A stretch of DNA of 64,000 nucleotides from Pseudanabaena sp. FACHB-2040 (GTDB taxonomy: Bacteria > Cyanobacteriota > Cyanobacteriia > Phormidesmidales > Phormidesmidaceae), in contig NZ_JACJQO010000022.1 in the NCBI RefSeq assembly GCF_014696715.1, positions 496,001-560,000 on the forward strand, in the 5' to 3' direction. The notes under the pieces were generated by a model. It saw only the letters and a program-made list of their open reading frames with translations. It ran no database searches and was not told the DNA's origin. Both the position numbers and the translations under genes were made by a program. This document shows positions 61,969-64,000 of this stretch, one piece after another; within the stretch, counting starts at the first letter, position 1; each line of letters opens with the position of its first letter.

Positions 61969-62829
61969 CTAAAGCCTAGCCAACGCCTCCGCAGGAGGCC
62001 GGTTAACCCGTCTAGCCAGACCTAGAACTTCCAGCACCCGAATAGCCCACCAAGTAACGTCAATCTGCCACCACTTCCAACCAGCAGGAGCCACATTGGG
62101 GTAGGCGTGGTGATGGTTATGCCAACCTTCGCCATAGGTTACCAGGGCAGTCCAAAATAGATTGCGTGAACCGTCTTTATTATCAAAGGGGCGTGCGCCA
62201 ACCATATGAGTAGCAGAGTTGATCAGCCAAGTGGAGTGCCACAGCAAAACTGCCCGCAAAAACAGACCGTAGATTACAAAAGACCAGCCGCCCATCGCAT
62301 ATAGCACCAGCGCTAGGGGAATTTGCAGCTTCAAAAAATGCTTATCTAGCCAGGTATAGTAGGCATCTTTGGCCAGATCAGGAGCATGTTTACGGTAGTT
62401 TTCGGGAATATAGAACTTCCTGCGAGGATACATAATCCACAGCATGTGGCTCCACCAAAAGCCTCGGCTGGCAGCATAGGGGTCTTTGTCTGGGTCTTCT
62501 GTGTAGAGGTGGTGCTGCCGGTGGCCGCTCACCCAGAAGATAGGTCCGCCTTGGATAGCCAGTGCGCCTAGGGTAGCTAGCACATATTCCAACCACTTGG
62601 GCACTTGCAGGCTGCGGTGGGTAAGCAAGCGATGGTAGCCCAAGCAAATGCCAATGCTGCCAAACAGCCAGTGGAGAACAATTGTTACCCCCAGGGCTTT
62701 CCAAGAAAAGAACCACGGAGCCAACAGAGCAATCCCGTGGAAAGCCGTGAAAAAGGCAACGTTTACCCAGTTAAGAGTCAATTTCTCCTCAGGCGGTGCC
62801 TGAGTCCGGTTCGTTAATGTAGAAGTCAT
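61969..62829 (-). CDS. desC: Acyl-lipid/acyl-CoA delta-9-type fatty acid desaturase
   Basis: A 286-aa membrane desaturase that inserts the first double bond (delta-9) in fatty acyl chains, which controls membrane fluidity. The three histidine boxes are HRLLTHRS, HRQHHLYTEDPDKDPYA and EGWHNHHHAYPNVA, binding the di-iron centre. Hydrophobic helices lie at about 25-70 and 175-215. SD AAAGGA precedes ATG 62829. It is divergent from a TetR-type regulator with two identical operator-like palindromes between them, so its expression is probably controlled by that regulator. Confidence 0.92.
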   Translation of the reverse strand: MTSTLTNRTQAPPEEKLTLNWVNVAFFTAFHGIALLAPWFFSWKALGVTIVLHWLFGSIGICLGYHRLLTHRSLQVPKWLEYVLATLGALAIQGGPIFWVSGHRQHHLYTEDPDKDPYAASRGFWWSHMLWIMYPRRKFYIPENYRKHAPDLAKDAYYTWLDKHFLKLQIPLALVLYAMGGWSFVIYGLFLRAVLLWHSTWLINSATHMVGARPFDNKDGSRNLFWTALVTYGEGWHNHHHAYPNVAPAGWKWWQIDVTWWAIRVLEVLGLARRVNRPPAEALARL

Positions 62830-62903: not shown

Positions 62904-62920
62904 TGCAAGTGACACTTACA
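62904..62920. promoter_or_regulatory. Operator-like inverted repeat, copy 1
   Basis: TGCAAGT-GAC-ACTTACA, one mismatch from a perfect 7-bp inverted repeat with a 3-bp spacer. It lies 75 bp upstream of the desaturase start codon and matches copy 2 in both arms. It is likely bound by the adjacent TetR-type regulator. Confidence 0.7.
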
Positions 62921-62949
62921 CTACAACAGTAACACTGGTCCTGTTAAGC

Positions 62950-62966
62950 TGCAAGTAGAACTTGCA
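62950..62966. promoter_or_regulatory. Operator-like inverted repeat, copy 2
   Basis: TGCAAGT-AGA-ACTTGCA, a perfect 7-bp inverted repeat with a 3-bp spacer, ending 6 bp before the start codon of the TetR-type regulator. It starts 46 bp from copy 1. Its position suits autorepression; on the minus strand it overlaps a possible -35 (TTGCAG) for the desaturase gene. Confidence 0.72.
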
Positions 62967-62972
62967 CTAAAA

Positions 62973-64000
62973 ATGTCCAACAAACGAAAAACTGCCCGTC
63001 AACGCCTAGTTCAAACCGCGCTTCAGCTCTTTGCTCAGCAGGGTGTGACTACCACCACCACGCGCCAAATTGCAGATGTTGCCGGGGTCAATGAGGTTAC
63101 GCTGTTTCGGCATTTTGGAAGCAAGCACGGCTTGCTTTTAGCTGTGCTCGAAGAAGCTGAAGTTTTTGTTGAGATGGGCGATGACTTACGAGAGCAGTCC
63201 AGCCAAACCCGAGGGTTTATCCCAGCCCTGCAAGCTTATGCTGAGGGCCATCTAGGAGCCTTAGAGCAACTGCCGGGGTTTGTGCGATCGCTCATTGGCG
63301 AAGCAGGCCATTACCCAGCCGAAAATCGAGAGGCGATTGGTCGCGGGTTGGCTCAAATTCAGCAGTACACAGAGGACTATCTAACCTGCATTATTGACCG
63401 AGAGCAAATTCGGGCGCGGCTCTCACCCGCTCAACTAGCCAGCCTGATCAACGTTCTGCTCTTGGGATATGCCGTGCTGGAATTTACCACCGAATTCCAT
63501 CGGCTCTGGCCCAGCCAAGAAGCTTTTATCGCCGACATGATGGCGCTGTTTCGCCTCACCGAGGCAGTAGCAGAACCTGAAGATCTTGCTTCTAATGTCT
63601 CAATTCCGAATTTTGAAACAGCTGGGCAGAAAGAAATCCAGGATTTACCCGCCTCTTTGGTGCGAGCGATTTTGCAAAAGGCCCGCAGCCGAGGCCCTCA
63701 GGTCTATGCATTGGCCTACATCTTGTTTGGCGCAGGCATTAGCGCCACGGAAATCGCAAGTCTACGACGCGCCCACTCCATTGCCGATGAGCAGCAGCAC
63801 ATTTTGCAGGTCAGTGGTTCCGCTAGTCGGCAGGTGCCCTTAAATCAATGGATCATGGGGCATCGCTATGGATCACATAACAAGAATCCGCTGACCCAAT
63901 GGTTGAGAACACGTAAAGACAGCCAGACAGCCCTGTTTGTTGATGGAGCCGGCAATCCATTGTCGGTAGCCGAAATTCGCCAGCTCTGGCAAGAGATTAC
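62973..64000 (+). CDS. TetR-type regulator fused to a recombinase-like domain (partial, runs off window)
   Basis: An open reading frame of at least 342 codons from ATG 62973 with no stop in the window. Residues about 6-55 are a TetR helix-turn-helix (RQRLVQTALQLFAQQGV, TRQIADVAGVNEVTLFRHFG). Residues about 60-200 resemble the helical TetR ligand/dimer domain. Where a TetR protein should end (about 200 aa) a second domain follows (about 215-342): SLVRAILQKAR, ALAYILFGAGISATEIASL, HILQVSGSASRQVPL and TALFVDGAGNPLSVAEIRQL. This follows the layout of a tyrosine-recombinase catalytic domain, but the catalytic Arg of the GLR position and the beta-hairpin Lys are missing. Divergent from desC. Confidence 0.8.
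   Translation, partial: MSNKRKTARQRLVQTALQLFAQQGVTTTTTRQIADVAGVNEVTLFRHFGSKHGLLLAVLEEAEVFVEMGDDLREQSSQTRGFIPALQAYAEGHLGALEQLPGFVRSLIGEAGHYPAENREAIGRGLAQIQQYTEDYLTCIIDREQIRARLSPAQLASLINVLLLGYAVLEFTTEFHRLWPSQEAFIADMMALFRLTEAVAEPEDLASNVSIPNFETAGQKEIQDLPASLVRAILQKARSRGPQVYALAYILFGAGISATEIASLRRAHSIADEQQHILQVSGSASRQVPLNQWIMGHRYGSHNKNPLTQWLRTRKDSQTALFVDGAGNPLSVAEIRQLWQEI

Follow-up and report, generated by a model that had tools for sequence, protein, structure and literature searches.

Why would a TetR-type repressor gene beside a fatty acid desaturase gene encode a second domain that resembles a phage integrase, and what could such a domain do for a transcriptional regulator? The question arises at the end of a 64,000-nt stretch of Pseudanabaena sp. 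FACHB-2040 DNA (the window), where an open frame on the plus strand runs from 62973 to the last nucleotide, 64000. The initial annotation, made from the letters of the window, read this frame as an uninterrupted fusion of a TetR regulator with a degenerate tyrosine-recombinase-like domain of at least 125 aa. The frame is open as described and continues in the 650-kb host contig until it meets a stop codon at 64223 (window numbering), so that the complete protein has 416 aa. The extra domain is present, but its real size is about 190 aa (residues 224-416).

The fused-regulator gene is organized in four parts, all on the plus strand. A TetR_N helix-turn-helix (62997-63146, residues ~9-58) is followed by a FadR/EthR-like ligand-binding and dimerization domain (63153-63569, residues ~61-199), a flexible and poorly conserved linker (63570-63641, residues ~200-223), and a Xer-like domain with a tyrosine-recombinase catalytic fold, very probably inactive (63642-64000, residues 224-416, the last ~74 of which lie outside the window). 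In the matching stretch of a relative (L034), the linker is modeled with a pLDDT below 50, and its mean pairwise identity is 14-20%. The recombinase-like segments ALAYILFGAGISATEIASL, HILQVSGSASRQVPLNQ, and LFVDGAGNPLSVAEI are found at the places originally given for them, and the sequence past 64000 supplies the rest of the domain, with the HxxR box, the LGH position, and the Tyr region (EQAQQTWRVEMLMRG...LSGC...LQPY).

The TetR half is readily recognized, as PF00440 (TetR_N) matches the window protein with 52.8 bits against a cut-off of 24 (E = 3.5e-14, residues 13-58). Foldseek supports an all-helical ligand-binding and dimerization domain, with hits to FadR, EthR, and FasR and E-values of ~4e-6 against FadR structures, the TetR half of the model being of moderate confidence. 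By profile and by model, residues 1-200 are a FadR-like TetR repressor. The protein scores 26.6 bits against the FabR family model NF008402 (cut-off 151), which places it outside that sequence family. One public record labels the fused protein simply as TetR/AcrR.

The recombinase assignment of the C-terminal domain depends on its relatives. In the window protein itself, PF00589 gives a match below the Pfam cut-off (18.7 bits versus 27.1; E = 0.0015, residues 230-345), accompanied by weak NCBIfam matches to XerC/XerD in the same stretch. The same model matches the C-terminal domains of 44 of 48 relatives, the best with an E-value of 3.1e-11, and a profile built from the 48 domains finds an archaeal XerC-like enzyme in the PDB (4.6e-6). 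A monomer model of the C-terminal domain alone from L034 (pLDDT 92.6, pTM 0.87) has XerA as its top Foldseek hit (4.4e-8), and VIA-align superimposes the two with a Z of 20.6 over 175 residues. Archaeal Xer follows with a Z of 18.4, Cre and lambda Int with ~15, and MrpR/YopR with 12-13; altogether, 125 chains align to the L034 domain at Z ≥ 8. Both the profile and the structural comparison that the initial annotation had proposed thus recover a recombinase fold, and this evidence assigns residues 224-416 to the Xer-type fold of tyrosine-recombinase catalytic domains. The core-binding domain found at the N-terminus of recombinases is absent, and the TetR half sits in its place. A search of a phage collection with the C-terminal domain gave no match. 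A phage origin for the domain was considered and set aside, given this result and a Gloeothece plasmid copy that carries the entire desC-tetR cassette. That plasmid (L217; NC_011730.1, 29 kb, Gloeothece citriformis PCC 7424) has the desC-tetR fusion cassette with both of the operators described below, near a gene for an orange-carotenoid-protein N-domain.

The annotation had also noted that the GLR arginine and the hairpin lysine are missing, and S257 and A284 occupy these positions. E357 and Q360 replace the HxxR residues, C383 stands at the His/Trp position, and Y391 is found at the position of the nucleophilic tyrosine. Residues were tallied in 27 diverse relatives and in a closer set of 48. 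Catalytic Arg I, Lys, and HxxR are mostly gone in both sets, some relatives having an Arg at single positions: among the 27, 3 retain Arg I and 7 the second Arg. The aligned Tyr is present in 23/27 and 46/48, the remainder having Phe or Leu, and the Arg at the KxR position is invariant (27/27 of the diverse set). The degenerate active site extends from the window protein to most relatives by residue tally, and the recombinase domain is very probably inactive, with R, K, H, and R lost and the Tyr mostly retained. One genome (G000) has two more long frames with weak PF00589 matches (L213 and L214; 602 and 525 aa), one of them near neutral in charge, which appear to be unusual recombinases.

A chance joining of a TetR gene and an integrase gene, or an assembly or sequencing error, would explain the architecture trivially, and a frameshift at 63570-63620 had been named as the finding that would split the frame into two genes. 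None is present, and near and distant relatives share one continuous frame. The protein is matched in 35 of 39 related genomes, and in about 27 of them, besides the window's own, the match covers most of the protein. A search through public genome contigs confirmed at least 577 relatives, and in the best 80 of these, which were analyzed, the gene is an intact single frame of 399-463 aa in 80/80. In a phylum sample of 292 genomes, 30 contain a strong C-terminal domain, one copy each and always in a frame of 404-464 aa; within that sample, the domain is never strong outside the ~400-460 aa fused frame, and eleven weak matches (E > 1e-6) lie in frames of 290-390 aa, as long as ordinary recombinases. 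A broken frame of this gene occurs in a few assemblies (L180, L182, L184, L198), which is the sort of thing an artefact would leave, but the continuous frame and conserved order in all of the best 80 public relatives and in the 30 strong phylum-sample matches make this explanation negligible; neither a chimeric join nor an error in sequencing accounts for the fusion. The same cassette was seen on a contig in a metagenome bin named Chloroflexaceae (L036; JAAUTE010000129.1), which is probably a mis-binned cyanobacterial contig. The proposal of a new regulator architecture holds up in the sense that this is a conserved and apparently unremarked combination, in the open-licence literature, of two parts that are each already known.

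The genomic context points to the function. Upstream of the regulator gene lies desC on the minus strand (61969-62829), an acyl-lipid delta-9 desaturase gene and the proposed target. The annotation had suggested looking for the fusion next to desC in other cyanobacteria, and a divergent desC directly adjoins it upstream in 80/80 of the best public loci. All 81 desC-tetR intergenic regions contain a pair of 17-bp palindromes, TGCAAGTnnnACTTRCA, in a search allowing up to 3 mismatches, the background rate being 0.04 such sites per 400 nt. In most loci, the two palindromes are 46 or 47 bp apart, start to start. In the window, predicted operator 1 (TGCAAGTGACACTTACA, 62904-62920) covers the expected desC transcription start, and predicted operator 2 (TGCAAGTAGAACTTGCA, 62950-62966), a perfect palindrome, overlaps the desC -35, immediately ahead of the start of tetR. 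A promoter is predicted on the desC strand, with a -35 hexamer TTGCAG (62949-62954) embedded in operator 2 and an extended -10, TGT-TACTGT (62926-62931), following the promoter pattern of the relatives: in 76/80 loci, this strand has an extended -10 (TGnTAnnnT) that a 17-bp spacer separates from a -35 of the form TTGCAN. The -35 is inside operator 2, and operator 1 begins 5-6 bp past the -10 in most loci. Binding at these sites should block the desC promoter.

The operator pair and the regulator also go together across the class. Of 291 class genomes, 113 have the strict double-operator pattern, with no matches for the control pattern, and the TetR is present in 113/113 of them. In two genomes (G035 and G336; loci L196 and L200, ~2640-2740), tetR and desC are in tandem and the pair is found in front of desC, not tetR. 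Since the pair stays with desC where gene order has changed, desC appears to be the target, and both the identity of the regulator and desC as its target are well supported by comparative sequence evidence. Repression rather than activation of desC is suggested by the operator positions, and autoregulation may be expected in the divergent arrangement. A wider regulon was considered and rejected, as the host genome contains no perfect operator sites besides these two and its looser matches are no more common than those of a reversed-pattern control; the best extra site (C5, one mismatch) is at the end of an unrelated ORF.

Individual loci show some variation. In L196, the operator pair overlaps the end of the regulator gene, and in L042 the pair was found further upstream by a wider search. 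Two loci from one genus (L194 and L195; genomes G345 and G422) have an extra perfect operator within the recombinase-domain coding region (2255-2271) as well as a partial operator in the TetR part. Operator spacing is 42 bp in one family (f52) and 50-52 bp in one genus (g80, family f36); in the one g80 case read by eye, the wider spacing comes mainly from a longer stretch between the -10 and operator 1.

We propose, with a probability of about 0.55, that the protein is a desC repressor dedicated to this locus, in which the dead recombinase domain would hold together two dimers bound at the operators. A FadR-like TetR dimer would bind one 17-bp palindrome, and because two palindromes straddle the desC promoter, dimers over the -35 and over the start site would block both of its ends and, at the same time, the adjacent start of the regulator's own gene. 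The recombinase-fold domain, held on its flexible linker, would serve as an oligomerization module that joins the dimers into a tetramer or a loop, and desC would then be repressed more tightly and in a more switch-like manner. The probable ligand of the TetR pocket is an acyl species, whether acyl-CoA, acyl-ACP, or free fatty acid, so that a build-up of saturated chains would release desC.

The initial annotation left open whether the extra domain is reused for DNA binding or for oligomerization. The evidence leans toward oligomerization and coupling, with DNA binding as the main rival. An early-branching family (G027 and relatives) encodes a TetR at the desC locus that lacks the recombinase domain, and in a FastTree of TetR halves rooted on paralogues it falls outside the group of fused proteins; support for the key nodes is modest (0.78-0.83). 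Among these TetR-only orthologues, a single good operator is present in 6/6 genomes of one genus and in G453, one good and one degraded operator in G374 and G382, and the strict pair in 0/9; this comparison of one with two operators amounts essentially to one clade plus one genome. Nested among the fused proteins, G049 (L181, 1489-2211, complete genome) has cleanly lost the domain just after the linker and retains both operators and desC, a natural deletion mutant.

The domain itself is conserved, with a mean pairwise identity in the diverse set of 0.53 versus 0.40 for the TetR ligand domain, the two being about equal in the closer set (0.65 and 0.66). Its net charge is near neutral, averaging +2, whereas most recombinase domains of the same genome lie between +5 and +13, and this speaks against DNA binding as its main role. 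The last element of the domain is a long helix of high conservation, and tyrosine recombinases pack against a neighbor through this C-terminal helix region. From the paired operators, the operator counts of the TetR-only relatives, the conservation and near-neutral charge of the domain, the disordered linker, and this helix, we infer that the extra domain couples two operator-bound TetR dimers. Strict helical phasing was considered as proof of contact and rejected, since families differ in their spacing (42 to 52 bp) and promoter geometry accounts for most of it. Different helical phases fall within this range, and the two sites might simply block the ends of the promoter without contact between the dimers. 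G049, which keeps the pair without the domain, and the degraded second operators of G374 and G382 also speak against coupling.

Two other roles for the domain deserve weight. It could bind DNA in addition to the TetR half, holding the promoter stretch between the operators, as suggested by the dead recombinase MrpR. This repressor binds DNA and shares the fold, and its active site is broken in a similar way, with a Tyr that is retained and needed for binding (PMC10516654). The mostly retained Tyr, the invariant Arg at the KxR position, and a basic, family-specific block (KRYGSYxxNPLTxWLKSRKD) that is among the most conserved parts would fit such a role, but the near-neutral charge sets the domain apart from most recombinase domains of the same genome, and the DNA between the operators is little conserved apart from the promoter elements; we consider this reading unlikely, if worth keeping in mind. 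Less likely still, the domain might be a sensor or a docking module for a partner, such as a lipid-metabolism protein or a small molecule, and be unrelated to the operator pair, which would then simply block both promoter ends. That the spacing follows the promoter and that G049 keeps the pair after losing the domain are in its favor, whereas in the early-branching relatives the lack of the domain goes with the lack of a strict operator pair.

DesC introduces the first double bond into the membrane lipids of cyanobacteria, a step required for the later desaturations that adapt them to cold. In the open-licence literature, we found no published transcriptional regulator of cyanobacterial desC and no description of a TetR-recombinase fusion or of a TetR regulator of this gene. 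The locus thus provides a named candidate regulator with predicted operators, a predicted promoter, and a natural series of TetR only, fused, and domain lost, in a protein that databases label as ordinary. Under the coupling interpretation, a TetR may have captured the domain early in the evolution of cyanobacteria, with strand exchange giving way to a tetramer-type coupling and a second operator being gained alongside. The result may be the principal switch by which lipids control delta-9 desaturation across much of the class. We regard this broader scenario as tentative, at somewhat less than even odds.

Compared with known systems, the C-terminal domain is closest to XerA/XerC/XerD, with which it shares the fold across the whole domain and detectable sequence homology; unlike these enzymes, it has lost the catalytic R-K-H-R, lacks a core-binding domain, and is fused to a TetR. 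The TetR half shares its fold with the bacterial FadR of B. subtilis, B. halodurans, and T. thermophilus. Bacterial FadR is a fatty-acyl-CoA sensor, whereas the protein described here has one desaturase gene as its proposed target and an extra C-terminal domain.

DesT and FabR are known as plain TetR proteins, and none of DesT, FabR, and MadR is known to carry a recombinase-type domain. Both DesT (P. aeruginosa) and FabR are TetR repressors divergent from the desaturase gene that they repress (PMC4273635). The cyanobacterial locus resembles them in its divergent TetR and desaturase genes with a shared operator region, and differs in the paired operators, the recombinase domain, and the acyl-lipid desaturase encoded by desC. 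In mycobacteria, the TetR protein MadR likewise represses desaturase genes and responds to the acyl-CoA pool as its sensor; the published abstract mentions no recombinase domain (PMC8872791). The master repressor of the Bacillus phage SPbeta, MrpR/YopR, has lost recombinase function and kept a Tyr that is needed for DNA binding (PMC10516654). Like the domain described here, it has a tyrosine-recombinase fold with a broken site within a regulator (Z of 12-13). However, MrpR binds DNA via a full recombinase layout with a core-binding domain and has no TetR, whereas here the TetR half would recognize the DNA; as an add-on to a TetR, the domain represents a second route by which a dead recombinase became part of a regulator.
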